Below, piece by piece: positions 13,250 through 62,639 of a DNA stretch of 64,000 bases. The position numbers and the translations under genes were made by a program. The stretch is from a virus. Below the pieces are notes generated by a model. It saw only the letters and a program-made list of their open reading frames with translations, searched no databases and was not told the origin of the DNA. The stretch's first letter is position 1. Every line of letters starts with the position of its first letter. Location of the stretch: positions 62,001 through 126,000 of IMG/VR virus record IMGVR_UViG_3300027996_002186, one strand, 5' to 3'.

Positions 13250-14008
13250 ATGCTAAATTATAAAGAGTATTTAAAGGAGGCCCAAGATAATCAAGTCGTT
13301 GTGTTGGATGATGGACAAGGTGGTAATATGTTTAAGACTGTTAAAAATGGTAGTAAGAACTCAATTACTTATCTTAATGCTGTTATAAAAAGGTTTATCG
13401 AAAGTGTTTATGGATCATCTGGGTTTGTTTATGGTAAACATACTGATATATTTATCGATAATAAGATAATTAATGGTGAGTATATATCAAAGATGGTTAA
13501 TAATTACACCATTTTTAAAAATGTGATAAGAATTAATAATATTAAAGAGGAAGAATCTTTTTATAATTTTATGTTATCTAATCTGAATAATATTTATTCA
13601 CCAAATGGTAAATTCTTTTTAGAACAATCATTACCTATTTTAATAAACACAACTAGAAGGGGAAATGTACTTGAAAAAATGGCTAAGGAATCCTTTTTAA
13701 AGTATTCTAAAGAAAAAGATATCGAGATTACTATACAAAACCCTTCTGTTGATGAAGATATAAACGGTGTTGATTTCAAATTCTTATCCAATGGTAGAAG
13801 TTTTACTGTTCAAGTAAAGCCATTTACTGATTATAAGTATATTGGTGATAAAATTTTCATAAAGACAGAAGGATCTTTATCATTGAATACAAACTACTTG
13901 ATACTATGTGATGGTAAGAATTGTATTAAATTAAGAAATACACCCTCTAATCCAGTTAAAATAAAAGGTAATACTTTTATTTCAAGTAAATCTAATCTAC
14001 TTATTTAA
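13250..14008 (+). CDS. PD-(D/E)XK nuclease-like protein with capsid-targeting-like N-terminus
   Basis: 252 residues beginning MLNYKEYLKEAQ, a variant of the shared N-terminal motif with L-K-E|A at residues 8-11. The C-terminal third carries what looks like a restriction-endonuclease-fold active site: a helix GNVLEKMAKESFLKY with Glu, then NGVDFKFL (Asp near residue 176) and, about ten residues on, FTVQVKPF (Q-x-K). The E...D...(E/Q)xK pattern is the usual PD-(D/E)XK metal site. If the N-terminal signal is real, this would be a nuclease carried in the head and injected. It ends 8 nt inside the convergent polymerase gene. The nuclease call is moderate; no specificity can be inferred. Confidence 0.5.
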   Translation: MLNYKEYLKEAQDNQVVVLDDGQGGNMFKTVKNGSKNSITYLNAVIKRFIESVYGSSGFVYGKHTDIFIDNKIINGEYISKMVNNYTIFKNVIRINNIKEEESFYNFMLSNLNNIYSPNGKFFLEQSLPILINTTRRGNVLEKMAKESFLKYSKEKDIEITIQNPSVDEDINGVDFKFLSNGRSFTVQVKPFTDYKYIGDKIFIKTEGSLSLNTNYLILCDGKNCIKLRNTPSNPVKIKGNTFISSKSNLLI

Positions 14009-15323
14009 ATCCACCGAATATATCCATTACCACACTCAATCTTCTTGTTATTTCTGGCATACCTAATGGTTCAATAATAGAATTAATTGGTGATAGTATT
14101 GATTTCTCAAATTGTATATCATAATCTATCTCAGGAGCAAATTCAATCGGGTAAGACCCTCTAGCATAAGCAAATGTGGAATTAACTGATTTATCTTTAC
14201 AGATATAATATTTAATCTTTGTACCAGATTTCATAAATTCATACTTATCTTGTAATTTCTTATCATTGTTCAATAAGTAATTATGATAAGCGGCCGCTTT
14301 AACAGCAAAGTGAGCTCCACTTATAAATTGTAATGGTAATGTTTTATCATTTAAAACTTTCTCATCATATTTATTACAAGATGATTGCATTGCGATATCA
14401 TCAACATCAGCCAATTCAAATTCCTTTCTAAGACCTTTTACCAATTTAAGTAAATCCTTTATATTGAATGTATCGGGATTCTCAAATAAATACTCTACTA
14501 TCCCAACAATCTTATCACGAGCAAAGGCTGGTGTGGATGACCTAACAAGTTCAACTCCTTTAGGATAAATATATTTCAATCTATCATATGGAATACCATC
14601 CTCATATAAAATATGTTGTATGTATTTTTTCTTAGCAATATTTATAATTGATTCTGATATTCTTTCAAGTTCAAAATCTTCTTTGTTTTCAACACCATAT
14701 GATTCTGCGTGTTTATCTAAACAATCTTTGAAGTAACCCTCATATTTTATTTGGTCAACTCCTAATATAAAATCAACCTCAGTAGACCAGTTCCAGATAA
14801 TATCATTTGTTAAAACTCCATCATCTATCATCTTATTTAACTTCCTATCTTTCACGAAGTTACCATCTATTAAAACTAACCCATAATCTTCTTTCAGAAG
14901 TTCTGTAAATTCCGTGATATCTTTTGACATACCCAAATAATTTGGATTATCTGTTTCTATCAAATCTCTTGATAGTATAATAAATTTCTTATCAATTGAA
15001 GATAGATATTCATCGTTAAATACTTGATCTCTCCAAGTACAATGGTCCATACAAGGTTTGAATGAAACAAAAATTGAATCGGTATCACCATAGATACTAA
15101 CATCCTCTTTCGTATCAATTGGTGTGATATCTTTTATATTTAATTGTTTGTGTAGCTCAGTATCAAGATGCCATTGATTATACCAATAATCTTGGTTATC
15201 ATCATCCATCTTTCTAGTCAATTCTCTACCCTCTGCTGTTATAGTACCTGCAACGTGGTTGTTATAAAGTATGAAGTATGGTGTTGCGAAGGCTCCATAA
15301 GAACCATTCAATACAAGTTTTAG
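14001..15323 (-). CDS. gp43: DNA polymerase (family B, gp43-like), C-terminal part
   Basis: The frame is open from the codon after the TGA at 15324-15326 down to 14001 (441 codons). It starts LKLVLNGSYGAFATPYF, i.e. motif B with the dNTP-binding Lys and the Asn-x-x-Tyr-Gly. Motif C YGDTDSIFV lies about 74 residues later, then thumb-domain segments matching T4/RB69 gp43 (GVELVRSSTPAFARDKI) and a C-terminal clamp-binding-like end (MDIFGGFK). Only a TTG is available as start in this frame, and it lies after the essential lysine, so independent translation would give a defective protein. The exonuclease and motif A parts are not in the window, so the gene is split, as in some Aeromonas T4-like phages. 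Confidence 0.85.
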   Translation of the reverse strand, partial: LKLVLNGSYGAFATPYFILYNNHVAGTITAEGRELTRKMDDDNQDYWYNQWHLDTELHKQLNIKDITPIDTKEDVSIYGDTDSIFVSFKPCMDHCTWRDQVFNDEYLSSIDKKFIILSRDLIETDNPNYLGMSKDITEFTELLKEDYGLVLIDGNFVKDRKLNKMIDDGVLTNDIIWNWSTEVDFILGVDQIKYEGYFKDCLDKHAESYGVENKEDFELERISESIINIAKKKYIQHILYEDGIPYDRLKYIYPKGVELVRSSTPAFARDKIVGIVEYLFENPDTFNIKDLLKLVKGLRKEFELADVDDIAMQSSCNKYDEKVLNDKTLPLQFISGAHFAVKAAAYHNYLLNNDKKLQDKYEFMKSGTKIKYYICKDKSVNSTFAYARGSYPIEFAPEIDYDIQFEKSILSPINSIIEPLGMPEITRRLSVVMDIFGGFK

Positions 15324-15643: not shown

Positions 15644-15986
15644 TATACGCCTATATGGTATTTGTTATGCTGATTGATAACCACTTATATTCTCACCATC
15701 ATAATAGTCGATACCTATCCAATTTTCATAATCTTCTACATTCACGTTTATATAATTCCCATTGTGGTAATAATTCACCAGGTATAATAATAAACAATAT
15801 AGGATCTGCCATTAGCTCTGTACCTCTTTTAACCTTTGTTTGTTTTGATTTTAATTTTACAATATCAACCTTTGATACATTATCAACTCCATATCTCTCT
15901 AAACAGGTTTCTTTTATTTTAGATATGATTGATTTTTTATTTATCTTATATTGATTATAGTAATGGAAATAGTAGTAACCTATCAC
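15644..15986 (-). pseudogene. Fragment of a homing-endonuclease-like protein
   Basis: An 86-codon frame (15726-15986, GTG start) contains ISKIKETCLERYGVDNVSKV, a repeat typical of large phage homing-endonuclease-associated proteins, and stops at 15726. One frame over, downstream sequence reads on (VEDYENWIGIDYYDGENISG, ending near 15644), suggesting a frameshift. There is no ATG start and no HNH or GIY-YIG core, so it is judged decayed. Together with the fragment at 15528 it fills the stretch between the polymerase and the gene at 16049; I see nothing else there. Confidence 0.4.
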
Positions 15987-16457: not shown

Positions 16458-17360
16458 TTAATAGATAATTGGTCCATCAAACCCCAAACGAACATTTTGA
16501 CCATCAAACACAATTGTTTCCGTTATCTCAGAAGGCTTAAATGTATTTTTGTGATAAACTTTCATTGGTCTTCTAAAGTCTTCTTCTGGTGGAGTATAGA
16601 CATAATTAAAACACTCACATCCACCACCCGTTCTTTTCCAAGACTTGGTTAAAAAAAAGTTATCACCTATTAATTCCTTTATGTGAAAATAAATATAATT
16701 CTCTTTTGAGTATTCATTGATAGGCATTAAAGATACTAAACCAATATCATTTATCTCAACAGAGTTTGCCCATTCTAAATATTTAAATACTTCTTCTGGT
16801 GTATCTATATAATTCTTTATTAAGTTACATCTGAATTGTACTTGGTGTGGATGTGTTTGTAAATGGCTTATAGCCTTTATCTCTTCTGATGTAGGAGTTT
16901 TGCATTTGAATATCTCATCATTAATCTTATCATCATAGTGGTGACGACTAAGTTGTATATAATCATATCTTTTAGCAATAGGGTCGTTAAATAACTTCTC
17001 CCATCTAAATCCGTCTGTATTCAGTGATAATTCACAATCAGGTGCATATTCCACACCAACATTGGACATTTCCAGAAAATTATCCCAATATAAAGTTGGT
17101 TCTCCACCAGAAATGGCTATTTTTCTAATCTTAATTCTATCTGATATATGTTGTAAGACTTCTTTATATTTTTTACCGTTCCATTTGGATGCGTCTGAGT
17201 GATATGTACAGAATGAGCACTTAGCGTTACAGAATTTAGTTCTAACATAAAGATTTATATAAGGTTCTTCAATGGCGTTTCCCTCCTCCTCTCCAAATAA
17301 GGCACAATTATGAGTTATTAGCTTAATTTCTTTCCCGAATAATTCGATTGATTCTAACAT
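16458..17360 (-). CDS. Radical SAM protein
   Basis: 300 residues. The iron-sulphur motif C-x3-C-x2-C is at Cys44, Cys48 and Cys51 (KFCNAKCSFCTYH), and the SAM-binding ISGGEPTLY follows near residue 85. These define a radical SAM enzyme that makes a 5'-deoxyadenosyl radical. The 50 residues before the cluster and a later Cys-containing segment (GGGCECFNY near 250) may bind substrate or an extra cluster. The specific reaction is not recognisable: the spacing does not single out QueE, and no other queuosine genes are nearby. It is the last gene of the minus-strand series with NadR, PnuC and the TonB-dependent receptor, which may hint at a link to nucleotide or cofactor metabolism. Confidence 0.8.
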   Translation of the reverse strand: MLESIELFGKEIKLITHNCALFGEEEGNAIEEPYINLYVRTKFCNAKCSFCTYHSDASKWNGKKYKEVLQHISDRIKIRKIAISGGEPTLYWDNFLEMSNVGVEYAPDCELSLNTDGFRWEKLFNDPIAKRYDYIQLSRHHYDDKINDEIFKCKTPTSEEIKAISHLQTHPHQVQFRCNLIKNYIDTPEEVFKYLEWANSVEINDIGLVSLMPINEYSKENYIYFHIKELIGDNFFLTKSWKRTGGGCECFNYVYTPPEEDFRRPMKVYHKNTFKPSEITETIVFDGQNVRLGFDGPIIY

Positions 17361-17370
17361 TATTTATTTA

Positions 17371-17631
17371 TTAACAAGATGATCTTGAATATGATGAATC
17401 ATCGTTTCGAAATCTCGAAATTGATGATTTTGGTGTTGGTGTTACTTTTTTATTAATTCGTGGCTCGATATCATTTTCGATACAAAACTTTATATAAACA
17501 GATCTTTTCAAATCGCCTGTGTTTATTAAATCTTCACAAGCATCATTAAATTTTGATTCAAGGTTAGTACCTTCATATCTACCTTTGTAGAATTGTAAAA
17601 GTTTTGCTAAAAGTTCTAATTGTTGGTCCAT
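17371..17631 (-). CDS. Hypothetical protein (86 aa)
   Basis: Not recognised. The first 60 residues look helical (QQLELLAKLLQFYKGRYEG); the C-terminus is Ser/Arg-rich and ends in Cys. It lies 10 nt upstream of the radical SAM gene and has its own TTTAATATATAA element on the minus strand at about 17657-17668. Confidence 0.5.
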   Translation of the reverse strand: MDQQLELLAKLLQFYKGRYEGTNLESKFNDACEDLINTGDLKRSVYIKFCIENDIEPRINKKVTPTPKSSISRFRNDDSSYSRSSC

Positions 17632-17649
17632 TGTGAATTCTTATTTTAG

Positions 17650-18669
17650 TTATATATTAAATTGTGAATTTACAATTTCAATAGATTTGCTTAATCTATC
17701 TCTCCAATTACCACCCACTTCTATATAATTACAATTGTACTTTTCCAATTCTGATTTAATAACATTATAATGTTCCATCCTTTCTTCTAAAAACTGTCGT
17801 GTTCCGTCTTGAACACCATCACAATCAGGTTTCAATAGTAAGTATAAATCATAATTACTATTTTTATATACTTTATCTAGTAATATGTTTTCAATACTTT
17901 TATAACCATTTGGAAAATACATTTTTGAGAAGAGGTATGTTGTTATATCCTCTGTATCACAGAATAATAATTTATTGGATGTCTTTATTTTTTGATTTTC
18001 CAATTCTTGTCGACCAACAGATATTGGGATAAAGTCTTCTATTCCTATTTTATTACCATTTCTTTCAAATACAGTTCTGCCATATTCCTCAACAAAATTT
18101 GTGTTATAGTATTTAGCTAAATTTTCACTCATTGTTGATTTCCCAACAGATTCCGGCCCCATAATAACAATTCTCTTAACGAAGTAGGGTTTTATTTCAT
18201 CCGGTATAAATTCCCAACTATCAAAGGGGTTAGTTCTTACTTTAGTTCCTGATATAGGAAATTTCTTTCTTTCTTTATCAACTAGATAGTGTTTTATACC
18301 CAAATATTTAGCAAAATCATCACCGTAATTCTCAGAAGTGAATACACAATCTAATTTACCAACAAATTTATAAACAAATGGAACCCAATAAGAATAAAAT
18401 TCATCAAGTGATTTACATTCGTGTTCATATTGTGGCATCTCACTATCATCAACAGAGTGTATTATGACATTTGGGTTACTTTCATATATTTCTCGTAAAG
18501 ATTTTACTCTTAATTTACCAGGGATTGTTTGTGTAGGATTATGACAAGCTAAAACATGAACAACTTCCGAATTTTCCAAAGCGGTGTCTATTAAATAAAG
18601 GTGCCCGGTGTGTAATCCGTAGAATTTACCCAATACTAAACTACTTTTGTACTTTTTATCCATTTCCAT
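17650..18669 (-). CDS. nadR: NadR-like NMN adenylyltransferase / ribosylnicotinamide kinase
   Basis: 339 residues in two domains. The first is a nucleotidyltransferase: GKFYGLHTGH at residues 14-23 and ISGTKVR at 139-145, the (H/T)xGH and ISxTxxR signatures of NMN adenylyltransferases. The second is a P-loop kinase with Walker A GPESVGKST at 171-179, matching the nicotinamide riboside kinase domain of NadR. Together they would turn nicotinamide riboside into NMN and then NAD. The N-terminal helix-turn-helix repressor domain of E. coli NadR is absent, so this form is purely enzymatic. Its start overlaps the end of pnuC by 34 nt, a tight coupling of transport and phosphorylation. Confidence 0.92.
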   Translation of the reverse strand: MEMDKKYKSSLVLGKFYGLHTGHLYLIDTALENSEVVHVLACHNPTQTIPGKLRVKSLREIYESNPNVIIHSVDDSEMPQYEHECKSLDEFYSYWVPFVYKFVGKLDCVFTSENYGDDFAKYLGIKHYLVDKERKKFPISGTKVRTNPFDSWEFIPDEIKPYFVKRIVIMGPESVGKSTMSENLAKYYNTNFVEEYGRTVFERNGNKIGIEDFIPISVGRQELENQKIKTSNKLLFCDTEDITTYLFSKMYFPNGYKSIENILLDKVYKNSNYDLYLLLKPDCDGVQDGTRQFLEERMEHYNVIKSELEKYNCNYIEVGGNWRDRLSKSIEIVNSQFNI

Positions 18670-19184
18670 AATCCAATTGATGCTAATATTAAGAATAAAC
18701 CATATACATATGATGATACGTCTAAGCCATTTGATGAGAATAATACTATTAATAGAATGTCATTTATAATCCAAAGAATCCAAGCTTCTATTTTCTTCTT
18801 CACTAATAGGAATGTAGCCATAACACCCAATGTCATTACAGCAGAGTCTAGAAATGGCATATTACCACCATATTCACTTGTTATACAAAACGTGGTCATG
18901 TATAGAATAATGGTGCTGGTTGTTAGATATCCTAATTGCTTTTTATTTAACCAACTAATAGCCAATTCTTCTTTTGGTTTGCTCCAGTTTATCCAACCTA
19001 GTATAGATTGGACTAGAAATACACCTTGTAAAACTAAATCACCAAGTAAGTTATGGTTGTAAAAGATAACAGAGTAAAAGATAACTCCTACGATACCAAA
19101 TGGCCAACATAATATGTTATCTTTTACTGTTAGAATAACAGCTAGTAACGTGAATAAAACAGCTACTGCCTCAATAATATCCAT
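18636..19184 (-). CDS. pnuC: PnuC nicotinamide riboside transporter
   Basis: 182 residues, almost entirely hydrophobic, with six to seven predicted transmembrane helices. Family landmarks are NILCWPFGIVGV near residue 23, SILGWINWSKPKEEL near 60, and EAWILWIINDILLIV near 132. PnuC proteins move nicotinamide riboside across the inner membrane by facilitated diffusion; trapping depends on phosphorylation by NadR, whose gene overlaps this one. Its ATG shares a base with the end of the TonB-dependent receptor gene, so the three genes are almost certainly co-translated from one mRNA. Other pnuC-fold transporters carry thiamine, but the NadR partner points to nicotinamide riboside. Confidence 0.92.
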   Translation of the reverse strand: MDIIEAVAVLFTLLAVILTVKDNILCWPFGIVGVIFYSVIFYNHNLLGDLVLQGVFLVQSILGWINWSKPKEELAISWLNKKQLGYLTTSTIILYMTTFCITSEYGGNMPFLDSAVMTLGVMATFLLVKKKIEAWILWIINDILLIVLFSSNGLDVSSYVYGLFLILASIGLWKWIKSTKVV

Positions 19185-21166
19185 TAAATCTTAAATTTAA
19201 TTGTAGCGAAGAAGTTGAATGGTGGATTAACAAAGAAGTGTCTATCTGTACCAACTGCGTATCCATTAGTGTAATAACTTTCATTAGTTATGTTATTTAC
19301 TCTAATACTTAAACTGTGTTGTTTATAGAATTTATAATCAACTTGAGCATTTAATACCACAAAATCTGGTGTTGTGAGTGTGTTCTCCATATCAATATAA
19401 GACTCTGAGTGGTACTTCACATCAAATCCAACTCTTATTCTATCTTTTGAATCTTTAATCACCACACCTTGGTTAATTATCAAATTAGGTGTGTATAATG
19501 GACTAAATTCTTTCCCATCATCATTAATTCTGTTATAAGAGTATGATGATGTATTAACTAATAATAAGTTAATTTTCTTTTTACTAAATAAACTTAAAGT
19601 CATATCTAATTCAATACCACTTCTAAAAGAGTTTTCAACATTAGTCATTAACGGTAAACCATTTGAACCAATTGCTCCTAATAATGTTATTTCATTTTTG
19701 AAATCCATATAGTATAGATTACCTTGTAACTTAAAGTTATCTAATGTTATATTAGTACCTAATTCATAATCAACAACCGATTCTGGTTTAACATCTATGT
19801 AACTAATAGGATCATCTTCTCCCATAAAAATATCATTTCTTGTTGGTTCTCTTTGTGATTGACCAACAGAAGCATAGAAGTTATAGTGTTTACATTTCGT
19901 GAACATTATACCACCTTTTGGGTTGAAGAATGTCCATTCAAATGGTGCCATATCCATAGTACCTTGATACTTGAAATCAACGTATCTAACTTGAGCATCT
20001 CCGAAAAGAGTAAACTTCTTTATATCATATCCGAATTTAACAAATGATGATACTTCGTTTTTAAGTCCTTTATTAGAATATAGTTCATCTGTGTTTGCTA
20101 ATACAGTCATAGCATGTCGTCTATCATACATATTACCACTAACACCAATATTCAATCTATATTTATTACCAGTTAAGTTATAGTTAGAGGTTAATCCATA
20201 GAAGTTAGAACCTAAATTGAAGTTAAGAACATCATCCCCTCCACCAAGTGGTAGTAAATCTAATCCCCAATCTCCATCTAATCTATTATAGAAAGCGGTA
20301 GTCGTTAAATTTGACTTGTTAAAAAAGTGTTTGTGTTTTAAGATAACCATACTTTGTGTAAAGTCGTCATTTTCTCTAGTAGTATTATAGTTAGTTCTTG
20401 GTTCTGATTTTATATCATCTTCTGAAACTGCGAACCAAGCCATTTCATTAGTTGTGTGTCCATTGAATGCTGTTATTTTAACAAAATCCTTTTCTCCATA
20501 ATAACCACCACTTAAAAAGAATGATTGTCCTTCACCACCTGAGTTATATTTGTATCCATCACTCGCGTAATTTGAATATCTAGTATAAAAGGCTGTTTTA
20601 TTTTTTAGTAATCCTGTTGAGTTTTCAATACTAACTCTATAAGTATTAAATGATCCATATCCAATTTGTCCTTCTGTTCCTTTCTTTAATCCCGTTGGTG
20701 ATTCAAAATTAATAGAACCAGCATATGAGGAAACACCGTTTGTTGATGTACCAACACCACGTTGTATCTGCATTGACCTAATTGAGTTTGTAAAATCTGG
20801 GTAATTTGAGAAATATACACCTTGGTCCTCTGGTTCATTAAGAGGAACCCCATCGAGTGTCATATTAATTCTAGTTTGGTCAATACCTCTCAATCTAAAG
20901 TAAGTATATCCCATATTGTGACCGCCATCTGTTGATGATGTTACACTTGGTGTTGTGTTTAATAACAACGGTAATTCTTGTGTATGATACATAACATCTA
21001 TATCATCTTTACTGATTGTTTTCTGAGTGACTGGTGTTTTAGATCCAGCTCTAATTCCTTGTATAGTAACTTCTTCAATTTGCACCATTGATGTGTCAAC
21101 CTTTAGAGTATCCTGTGAATACGATGTTGATGTTGCTAATAAAAATAAAAATAGTAATTTCTTCAT
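19184..21166 (-). CDS. TonB-dependent outer-membrane receptor
   Basis: 660 residues. A signal peptide (MKKLLFLFLLATSTSYSQ) is followed by a TonB-box-like EEVTIQG near residue 32, a plug domain (about 40-150: ELPLLLNTTPSVTSSTDGG, YFRLRGIDQTRINMTLDGV, SIRSMQIQRGVG) and a long barrel rich in alternating aromatic strands (YGSFNTYRVS, YASVGQSQREPTRNDI near 435). The end (NNITNESYYTNGYAVG, FFATIKFKI) is typical of the last strands. Such receptors import vitamins, siderophores or glycans across the outer membrane using TonB energy. It is followed directly by pnuC and nadR, so nicotinamide riboside or a precursor is the likely ligand. There is no SusC-type N-terminal extension. No frameshift or truncation is seen. 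Confidence 0.93.
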   Translation of the reverse strand: MKKLLFLFLLATSTSYSQDTLKVDTSMVQIEEVTIQGIRAGSKTPVTQKTISKDDIDVMYHTQELPLLLNTTPSVTSSTDGGHNMGYTYFRLRGIDQTRINMTLDGVPLNEPEDQGVYFSNYPDFTNSIRSMQIQRGVGTSTNGVSSYAGSINFESPTGLKKGTEGQIGYGSFNTYRVSIENSTGLLKNKTAFYTRYSNYASDGYKYNSGGEGQSFFLSGGYYGEKDFVKITAFNGHTTNEMAWFAVSEDDIKSEPRTNYNTTRENDDFTQSMVILKHKHFFNKSNLTTTAFYNRLDGDWGLDLLPLGGGDDVLNFNLGSNFYGLTSNYNLTGNKYRLNIGVSGNMYDRRHAMTVLANTDELYSNKGLKNEVSSFVKFGYDIKKFTLFGDAQVRYVDFKYQGTMDMAPFEWTFFNPKGGIMFTKCKHYNFYASVGQSQREPTRNDIFMGEDDPISYIDVKPESVVDYELGTNITLDNFKLQGNLYYMDFKNEITLLGAIGSNGLPLMTNVENSFRSGIELDMTLSLFSKKKINLLLVNTSSYSYNRINDDGKEFSPLYTPNLIINQGVVIKDSKDRIRVGFDVKYHSESYIDMENTLTTPDFVVLNAQVDYKFYKQHSLSIRVNNITNESYYTNGYAVGTDRHFFVNPPFNFFATIKFKI

Positions 21167-21182: not shown

Positions 21183-21542
21183 TTATATTGATTGATTTAT
21201 TATTGATTCTCTGTTTTCTGATTTAAGATATTCGAAAAAGTCTTTTAGTAAAATATTTTCTGTTCCATCATACTCATATTCACTACCACTTCCTATATTC
21301 CCATAATTTATATTTGAGTTTTTAAACTCATTAAATTTTTCTTCTAATTTCTTACTCATTTCAGTGGATGTATGGATATCAATTGTATTGTCTCTTTCAT
21401 CTAAGTAAAAAGTGAACAATTTGTTATCTAATCCAGTTCTTTTGTGGTGTACCGAGACGAATCTTTTACCAAGTACCTCAATATGGTCTGAGTTATCACA
21501 TTTAAGTTCAATTCCGTAAAATGGTAAGTATAAATTTATCAT
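21183..21542 (-). CDS. Hypothetical protein (119 aa)
   Basis: Not recognised. A soluble alpha/beta-looking protein (LGKRFVSVHHKRTGLDNKLF, DERDNTIDIHTS). It lies between the sliding clamp gene (20 nt away) and the TonB-dependent receptor (16 nt), all on the same strand, so it is probably part of one transcript. Confidence 0.55.
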   Translation of the reverse strand: MINLYLPFYGIELKCDNSDHIEVLGKRFVSVHHKRTGLDNKLFTFYLDERDNTIDIHTSTEMSKKLEEKFNEFKNSNINYGNIGSGSEYEYDGTENILLKDFFEYLKSENRESIINQSI

Positions 21543-21562
21543 ATTAGATTAAAATTATTTGA

Positions 21563-22351
21563 TTAAATATCATCCTCTTCAAAATCTTGTTCGAAGCTAA
21601 GCATCAAATTAGATTCTTCATCTTTAACTAACATAAAGGTTTCGAATATACTGAATGTGATTTTTTCTCTCTCAGCGTTTATGCAATTTAAAAACCTTTT
21701 ATTAAAAATAAGGTTAGAACTTCTATCATCTTCTAAGTTATCGACTTCTAAATCCCAAGCTGATTTTTCAGAGAAGTTAACAATACCTTTATCGATACCA
21801 ATATTTATAATTCTCTCTGAGTTAATACTTGAAAGTTTTTTAATATCAGTGAAATCATCTTTCGTAAGAGCGAATGACCATTTACTATTTTTTAGATTTA
21901 AGTTCTTAGCTAACATTTCTTTATTGATTTCTCTAGTTTCATTATTGTGTTCTCCACCAACCCAATTAATCTTAAATCGACCACAAGATACTTGGAAATA
22001 TCTTACTTGATAAATGTCTCTATCATCGGCTGATGGTTTATAATTAAATTCTATTGTTACTTTATCCGGATCCTTGATCATACCAAGGTTCTTAACAAAT
22101 TTCTTGATATTAGGTATGACTAAATCTAATTGATAATCTAGGTCATCGTTTTTTATGAGAAATTCATCTGTTGGTATTAAATAGTTTTTGAAGGCGAGTA
22201 ATATATTCTTACCTAAGATAGAATACATTAATACATCATCATTATCTATTTTCAACCTAACACTATCATCAATAGTTGATAAATCACTTAATTTAGAAAC
22301 AAATGTATTAAATGTGTCTCCGTTTATTTTAAATTTTACTTTATTCGCCAT
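21563..22351 (-). CDS. gp45: Sliding clamp (gp45-like)
   Basis: 262 residues with the character of a T4-type processivity clamp: a beta-rich acidic protein with repeated segments such as DDVLMYSILGKNILLAFKNY in the first half and KRFLNCINAEREKITFSIF in the second, ending in an acidic tail. T4 gp45 is 228 residues and forms a trimeric ring that tethers the polymerase and, in late transcription, contacts the sigma-like gp55-RNA polymerase complex. A gp44-like loader is encoded at 60.6 kb. It heads the minus-strand series that continues through the TonB-dependent receptor, PnuC and NadR. The call relies on overall pattern rather than a diagnostic motif. Confidence 0.6.
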   Translation of the reverse strand: MANKVKFKINGDTFNTFVSKLSDLSTIDDSVRLKIDNDDVLMYSILGKNILLAFKNYLIPTDEFLIKNDDLDYQLDLVIPNIKKFVKNLGMIKDPDKVTIEFNYKPSADDRDIYQVRYFQVSCGRFKINWVGGEHNNETREINKEMLAKNLNLKNSKWSFALTKDDFTDIKKLSSINSERIINIGIDKGIVNFSEKSAWDLEVDNLEDDRSSNLIFNKRFLNCINAEREKITFSIFETFMLVKDEESNLMLSFEQDFEEDDI

Positions 22352-61595: not shown

Positions 61596-62639
61596 ATGAT
61601 AGGTGAAAGATTTAATATGGAGGATGTTTTCTTCCGAGATTTAACAGTTTGTGTTCTTGATACCTTAGAAGGTCAAGTTAATTGGGTTAATAGATTTTCT
61701 TCTGGGGATGTTTATGTAAAAGTACCTTTTTATTACTCATTGACGGGTGATGAGAGGTTTTTATTGGATACATTTCAGGATGATGTGGTTTCTGAAAATA
61801 GATTTGTTGAATTAAACACCGATATTATACCAAGGGGTCACATAACAATGACTGGATTTAATATTAATTCTGATGAATTCTCCAATCCTAATGTTTGGTT
61901 GAGAATGGTTGTCGAGAATGAGGTTGAGATAAGAAAGATTTTAGCTAAAGTTAGAGCAGTTCCTATTACTGTTAGTTATGATTTGGAAATATTACTTTCT
62001 AGTGAAGTAGATACGTTCAAGTGTAGTCAGGCAATAATGGATACTTTATGGTTATATAAATTTATGTATTTTGAGCATAACTTTATGAATATAGATGCTG
62101 TTATATTAATGCCAGATGGTAATTCAATAGAAATGGCACGTGAAAAAAATATGTCTTCTGATAATAATATTAAGATGAAGGTCTCATTTGAGGTACAAAC
62201 ATATTATCCAGCTTTTAGAAAAGATAGATATAATGGTGTGGGTTATCCTAGGAATTATGGTGATGGTATGACTGATTTAAATGGTCATACAATAGTAGAT
62301 GGGTTTTCGGAGGGATTTGGTACTGATAACCCATCGAATTCTCCTGGACCGTTCGCGCCCGGAGGTGGTACTAATAACGTACCGAATTCTCCTTATGATT
62401 ATATTGGTGGTCTAGATCCTAATATTAATACTGGTACTACACCATATGGTGCTACTGGTAATTATACATACATTCAAAATCCTAATGGTTCCGGTGATCC
62501 TGATTATTATATCACACCTAAAAGAACTAGATGGTTTAATAATATACTAAGAGCTAGACAAAAATCTAGTATACCAATAAATAACCCAAATTCACAAGAT
62601 CCTAATAATGGATCATCAGGAAATCCTTACACTCCGTAA
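61596..62639 (+). CDS. T4-like virion structural protein
   Basis: 347 residues from the ATG at 61596. The core (FFRDLTVCVLDTLEGQVNW, VKVPFYYSLTGDERFLLDTF, NTDIIPRGHITMTGFNI) matches the pattern of a conserved structural protein of T4-like phages, probably a tail or baseplate component. The C-terminal 100 residues are Gly/Pro/Asn-rich linker sequence (PGPFAPGGGTNNVPNSP, DPDYYITPKRTRWFNNILR). No exact T4 counterpart is claimed. Confidence 0.5.
   Translation: MIGERFNMEDVFFRDLTVCVLDTLEGQVNWVNRFSSGDVYVKVPFYYSLTGDERFLLDTFQDDVVSENRFVELNTDIIPRGHITMTGFNINSDEFSNPNVWLRMVVENEVEIRKILAKVRAVPITVSYDLEILLSSEVDTFKCSQAIMDTLWLYKFMYFEHNFMNIDAVILMPDGNSIEMAREKNMSSDNNIKMKVSFEVQTYYPAFRKDRYNGVGYPRNYGDGMTDLNGHTIVDGFSEGFGTDNPSNSPGPFAPGGGTNNVPNSPYDYIGGLDPNINTGTTPYGATGNYTYIQNPNGSGDPDYYITPKRTRWFNNILRARQKSSIPINNPNSQDPNNGSSGNPYTP

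Follow-up and report, generated by a model that had tools for sequence, protein, structure and literature searches.

The window analysed here, a 64,000-nucleotide (nt) stretch (positions 62,001 to 126,000) of the 483,262-bp virus record IMGVR_UViG_3300027996_002186, carries three overlapping genes on its minus strand: one for a TonB-dependent outer-membrane receptor, then pnuC, for a facilitator of the nicotinamide riboside (NR) type, and nadR, for an enzyme of nicotinamide adenine dinucleotide (NAD) synthesis (Table 1). All three start with ATG and are intact, and their open reading frame (ORF) coordinates agree with the order and overlaps given in an earlier note on this DNA: the receptor gene and pnuC share 1 nt (position 19184), and pnuC and nadR share 34 nt (18636-18669). 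We consider it very probable that these genes are a complete Bacteroidota-type acquisition operon for NR. NR is a form of vitamin B3, and the operon would give the phage control of an envelope-to-NAD supply during infection.

The receptor scores above the Pfam cut-offs for both the Plug domain (46.5 bits, cut-off 23.9) and the TonB barrel (93 bits, cut-off 27). Its N-terminus, MKKLLFLFLLATSTSYSQ, resembles a signal peptide by inspection only, and residues 2-14 are modelled as a helix. A candidate TonB box, (L/I)xEVxV/I (IEEVTI in the window receptor), is conserved ahead of the plug in alignment A1, and the plug region itself (residues ~81-140) is the least variable stretch of the protein. The AlphaFold model, built on a 58-sequence alignment, has a mean pLDDT of 89.3 and a pTM of 0.87. 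By profile and by fold, the nearest solved structure is PqqU/YncD (TM 0.83); the folds are alike at 15% sequence identity, and the gene context gives no support for pyrroloquinoline quinone (PQQ), the PqqU ligand. This receptor is the sole TonB barrel of the 483-kb record.

PnuC matches NMN_transporter (PF04973) at 153.5 bits (cut-off 27.3) and TIGR01528 at 88 bits (cut-off 42.45), and a profile of phage PnuC proteins matches the solved NR transporter 4qtn (E 7e-31). To judge solely by the linkage to nadR, its substrate would be NR rather than thiamine or riboflavin. NadR has Pfam matches to AAA_28 (102.9 bits) and to a cytidylyltransferase-like N-terminal domain. It aligns over its full length with TIGR01526 (228 bits) and end to end with PHROG 3462 (267 bits) and the solved NadR structures 8x7f and 1lw7. 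Both predicted catalytic domains are accompanied by their motifs (HxGH, SGTxxR, Walker A, DTE and DGTR), seen as GKFYGLHTGH (position 14), SGTKVR (140), GPESVGKS (171), DTE (238) and DGTR (288); an N-terminal DNA-binding domain is absent. PnuC is a facilitated-diffusion carrier, and phosphorylation by NadR traps NR before NAD is made (PMC7221760).

Linkage in Bacteroidota and recurrence in phages

Bacterial loci were collected in one genome scan by receptor sequence alone, and the best 80 of 293 relatives were analysed; nearly all of these are Bacteroidota by record title. nadR lies within 3 kb downstream of the receptor gene in 73 of the 80 loci, and pnuC in 55. The usual gaps are -1 or -4 nt between receptor and pnuC and about -8 to -50 nt between pnuC and nadR, an architecture that the window matches. 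Because receptor relatives lie with nadR and pnuC at these frequencies and with short overlaps, the operon is a standard Bacteroidota NR operon, bacterial in origin. The earlier note had named relatives lying always in unrelated transport loci as the finding that would speak against it; in bacteria and phages alike the neighbours are nadR and pnuC, which backs the predicted uptake-to-NAD unit. Receptor-pnuC-nadR operons in Flammeovirga, Chitinophaga, Zobellia and Mucilaginibacter (L020, L030, L055 and L052) have the same genes, order and type of short overlap, with ~40-48% receptor identity. Unlike these chromosomal operons, that of the window lies among phage replication genes and its receptor belongs to a phage-restricted clade.

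The closest named genome is LR745206 (635 kb), with 84% identity in the receptor, 73% in PnuC and 81% in NadR. Its gene order is that of the window: clamp-like ORF, 119-aa ORF, receptor, pnuC, nadR, 86-aa ORF, radical-SAM gene and half of a family B DNA polymerase (PolB). The order recurs in three other IMG/VR contigs as well, so the operon is not an assembly chimera. The trio is contiguous in LR756502 (642 kb) and spread across ~4.5 kb in LR756501 (735 kb), and in Lak phages the receptor gene is followed by nadR-pnuC ~5-6 kb further on. Receptor scans of IMG/VR found additional contigs. Viral loci, also gathered by receptor sequence alone, number 37 after removal of duplicates, and in 34 of them the receptor gene is accompanied by pnuC, nadR or both; among the three exceptions, pnuC lies ~8 kb off in one locus, and the match is partial or truncated in two. 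A phrog_2 terminase search was positive in 14 of 45 records; many short IMG/VR contigs lack a hallmark gene of their own, and their viral status is the IMG/VR classification.

Each of the seven large phage genomes examined encodes exactly one TonB barrel, this receptor type, and none has a second TonB receptor. In a collection of 50,697 phage records the receptor matches 24, all Lak, Mahaphage-type or gut fragments; NadR matches 770 records of the same collection and PnuC 391. The earlier note held a phage gene for an outer-membrane transporter to be very rare. This stands for annotated viral proteins, among which no PHROG family matches the receptor and the BFVD structure library holds one TonB receptor, of another type (SusC of an uncultured marine phage, 805 aa, 12% identical), but it does not hold for Bacteroidetes megaphages, where the unit recurs, the seven large genomes included. 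The gene set recurs in many other giant Bacteroidetes phages, a fact that published surveys seem to have overlooked.

Evolution and genomic setting

Phage rows are strongly clustered in the receptor tree, with 4 label changes compared to 31 in shuffles. In a 34-row tree the window receptor is one of nine rows in a fully supported group (100/100), eight of them phage and the ninth locus L018. A single phage clade is rejected for the receptor (approximately unbiased (AU) test, p 3e-7), which implies several captures or exchanges by phages; apparently the operon was captured several times. The NadR tree shares its main groups with the receptor tree, so the operon has for the most part been transferred in one piece. 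The window's NadR and PnuC fall together with those of LR756502 (support 99 and above; NadR group 100/99). The window and LR745206 receptors do not group with the LR756502 receptor (locus L013; AU p 4e-6), which suggests that the latter was exchanged once, independently of pnuC-nadR. Against LR745206, dN/dS is 0.09 for the receptor, 0.15 for PnuC and 0.11 for NadR at a dS of ~1, close to the 0.04-0.07 of replication genes, and the operon is kept under purifying selection.

Two further observations concern these alignments. Differences between the window and the near-identical locus L003 cluster in the C-terminal 130 residues of the receptor and in pnuC, with nadR, the radical-SAM gene and PolB nearly unchanged, a pattern that suggests a recombination tract. 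Three receptor contigs (L018, L019 and L077) are filed under Myxococcota, Thalassovita and Williamsia metagenome-assembled genomes and look misbinned; by the receptor tree, L018 is probably phage-derived and the other two are probably Bacteroidota. The relatives of L018's neighbour gene are all distant and lie scattered among phages, so a phage origin is probable and not certain. Comparison of L018 with L098 shows no shared neighbour gene.

The same window encodes a T4-like terminase (TerL), a contractile tail sheath, a T4-like helicase, half of PolB and a clamp loader. Among the relatives of the phage are LR745206 and LR756502, two genomes of the Mahaphage clade. Its host is probably a member of the Bacteroidetes, as the earlier note had it, consistent with the receptor relatives and with published predictions for the nearest phages (PMC7162821). 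There, Al-Shayeb et al. predict Bacteroidetes hosts for all of their genomes above 634 kb and assign these, along with the Lak phages, to the Mahaphage clade.

Table 1 Genes of the operon and its flanks, in window coordinates
Feature	Position	Strand	Basis
TonB-dependent outer-membrane receptor (TBDR), 660 aa	19184..21166	-	Pfam Plug + TonB-receptor barrel
PnuC-family nicotinamide riboside facilitator, 182 aa	18636..19184	-	PF04973, TIGR01528
NadR: nicotinamide mononucleotide (NMN) adenylyltransferase + ribosylnicotinamide kinase, 339 aa	17650..18669	-	TIGR01526, PHROG 3462, motifs
86-aa ORF 3' of nadR	17371..17631	-	family match none; 60% in LR745206
Radical-SAM protein, 300 aa, downstream neighbour	16458..17360	-	PF04055, 50.8 bits
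119-aa ORF + 262-aa ORF, upstream of receptor gene	21183..22351	-	order kept in LR745206

The range covered by the earlier note (16458-21166) also contains the 86-aa ORF and the radical-SAM gene, which it did not describe. Pfam, PHROG and NCBIfam searches give zero family matches for the 86-aa ORF, which is probably on the operon transcript. The radical-SAM gene may or may not belong to the operon unit. Its homologues in LR745206 (87% identity), LR756502 (46%, opposite strand) and L006 (44%) each adjoin the operon, and the protein resembles HxsC and viperin models weakly, with scores under their cut-offs. Upstream, Pfam and PHROG scans of the 262-aa and 119-aa ORFs give no family match for the 262-aa product, which by our reading of its size and replication context is sliding-clamp-like. 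PolB is split: its C-terminal half lies at 14001-15311 (minus strand) of the window, adjoined by a DUF7487 ORF (15726-15986) that is possibly endonuclease-related, and its N-terminal half is at record position 171951-173477 (plus strand), outside the window, ~95 kb off and on the opposite strand. The operon has the G+C content of the phage. A search for RNA elements and riboswitches near it returned just one sub-threshold CRISPR-repeat match (19169-19196), taken as chance.

Related genomes carry other NAD genes. A PF04095-family (nicotinate/nicotinamide phosphoribosyltransferase) gene is present in six of the seven large genomes: those of LR756502 and Lak-C1 are NAMPT-type, above the NF006629 cut-off, and those of LR745206 and the L098 record are divergent and NAMPT-like. 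LR756501 has a nicotinate phosphoribosyltransferase (PncB) and an NAD synthase (NadE) directly upstream of the receptor gene, so that PncB, NadE, TonB receptor, PnuC and NadR cluster there (L127, L014) as two adjacent NAD routes. In the 483-kb record other NAD genes were sought by family alone, and searches with PF04095 and with the LR745206 homologue find no NAMPT or other phosphoribosyltransferase there; this record, possibly an incomplete one, is smaller than LR745206.

Proposed function and alternative explanations

In the mechanism that we propose, the phage receptor would be made during infection and exported to the host outer membrane, where, energised by host TonB/ExbBD, it would move NR, or a close pyridine nucleoside or nucleotide, into the periplasm. 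PnuC would equilibrate NR across the inner membrane, and NadR would phosphorylate NR to NMN, trapping it, and then adenylate NMN to NAD. The NAD supply would be phage-controlled and independent of the host receptor and host salvage enzymes.

Several points weigh against this reading. The NadR score against TIGR01526 is under the equivalog cut-off (341 bits), and in 18 of the 80 bacterial loci the receptor gene has nadR but not pnuC beside it. The likeness to a PQQ receptor at such low identity leaves the ligand unfixed, and it is the neighbouring genes by themselves that point to NR as the likely receptor substrate. We infer expression, localisation, use of TonB, the NR ligand and the benefit to the phage from sequence. 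The host assignment of this record is indirect, through receptor relatives and nearest phages.

The purpose may be nutrition, the countering of NAD-depleting immunity, or both. That the unit mainly refills NAD depleted by TIR/Thoeris, SIR2-type or other NADases is a possibility that we entertain tentatively; it is a rival on purpose and not on biochemistry, and is compatible with NR supply. The host could not shut off NR that comes from outside, and related phages would have a second arm in the recycling of nicotinamide. Phage NAD-synthesis genes are interpreted in this way in passages of the literature (PMC9503650, section 3.6; NARP2 as cited in PMC12028318), and the NAMPT-type enzymes of LR756502 and Lak and the PncB and NadE of LR756501 are in keeping with it. 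However, the analysis turned up neither an NADase nor another defence partner, searches of the 483-kb record, which may be incomplete, find no phosphoribosyltransferase, and NR import through the outer membrane may lag behind an abortive response.

The remaining alternatives concern the receptor itself, or the whole segment. The earlier note had also considered an effect on superinfection or the replacement of a receptor used by the phage. If the receptor were kept for superinfection control, as a decoy or as a substitute entry receptor, pnuC and nadR would be incidental; we regard this as unlikely. Passages of PMC7162821 propose that huge-phage surface proteins influence superinfection, and the apparent swap of the LR756502 receptor on its own, while NadR and PnuC group with those of the window, is the only positive evidence. 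The plug is the most conserved part of the protein, linkage to pnuC and nadR persists over phage lineages, and the seven large genomes have no further TonB receptor; the conserved plug and constant linkage favour transport. A carbohydrate importer of the SusC type is very improbable. PMC9723777 assigns 'SusC' to Mar_Mega_1, says that LR745206 has the same, suggests carbohydrate uptake and does not report the adjacent pnuC and nadR. The only TonB barrel of LR745206 is the homologue that is 84% identical to the window receptor, so the 'SusC' of that genome should be this receptor; the Mar_Mega_1 receptor (OU342829) is set beside ours by published description only. Pfam finds just Plug and barrel, with no N-terminal carboxypeptidase-regulatory-like extension domain, there is no SusD match in the ten neighbouring proteins scanned, the neighbours are pnuC and nadR and not glycan genes, and the single viral protein that BFVD annotates as SusC is only distantly similar. 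The receptor lacks SusC features, and our reading would correct the published carbohydrate-uptake assignment. That the genes are a recent passenger, transduced host DNA or a misassembly with no phage function is scarcely credible. They are bacterial in origin, but their position is common to three other IMG/VR contigs and LR745206, they have kept ~84% identity to the latter at a dN/dS near 0.1, the receptor clade is deep and phage-restricted, and the G+C is phage-like; conserved synteny and selection contradict this explanation.

Phage PnuC and NadR, and phage NAD salvage, were already known, for example in KVP40 (PMC9503650, PMC7824862). KVP40-type NAD salvage (NadV/NadM/NadR, PnuC; NARP2) and the window have phage-encoded NadR and PnuC in common (PHROGs 3462 and 1880), but KVP40-type phages, unlike the window phage, seem reliant on host outer-membrane entry. 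Passages of the NAD surveys (PMC9503650, PMC7824862) and of the Lak and huge-phage papers make no mention of an outer-membrane step or a TonB receptor, and a literature search, with subscription papers and supplements outside it, found no paper that brings a TonB receptor and PnuC together in a phage in this way. The outer-membrane step is what is new relative to known phage NAD salvage.

Nearly all phage metabolic genes, to our knowledge, encode single enzymes or inner-membrane transporters. The phage would encode the entire route of a scarce cofactor precursor, beginning with an energised outer-membrane receptor. We suggest, with less than even confidence, that Bacteroidota megaphages as a group may render the infected cell NAD-self-sufficient from the envelope inwards, with an exchangeable receptor, both for feeding a very large genome and for outlasting NAD-depleting immunity; if so, this would be the first case known to us in which a phage is shown to place an energised importer with its own substrate in the outer membrane. 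The operon offers a concrete case in which nutrition and counter-immunity can be tested against each other as roles of phage NAD genes, and its recurrence in the largest phages known suggests that NAD supply may be limiting in megaphage infections.

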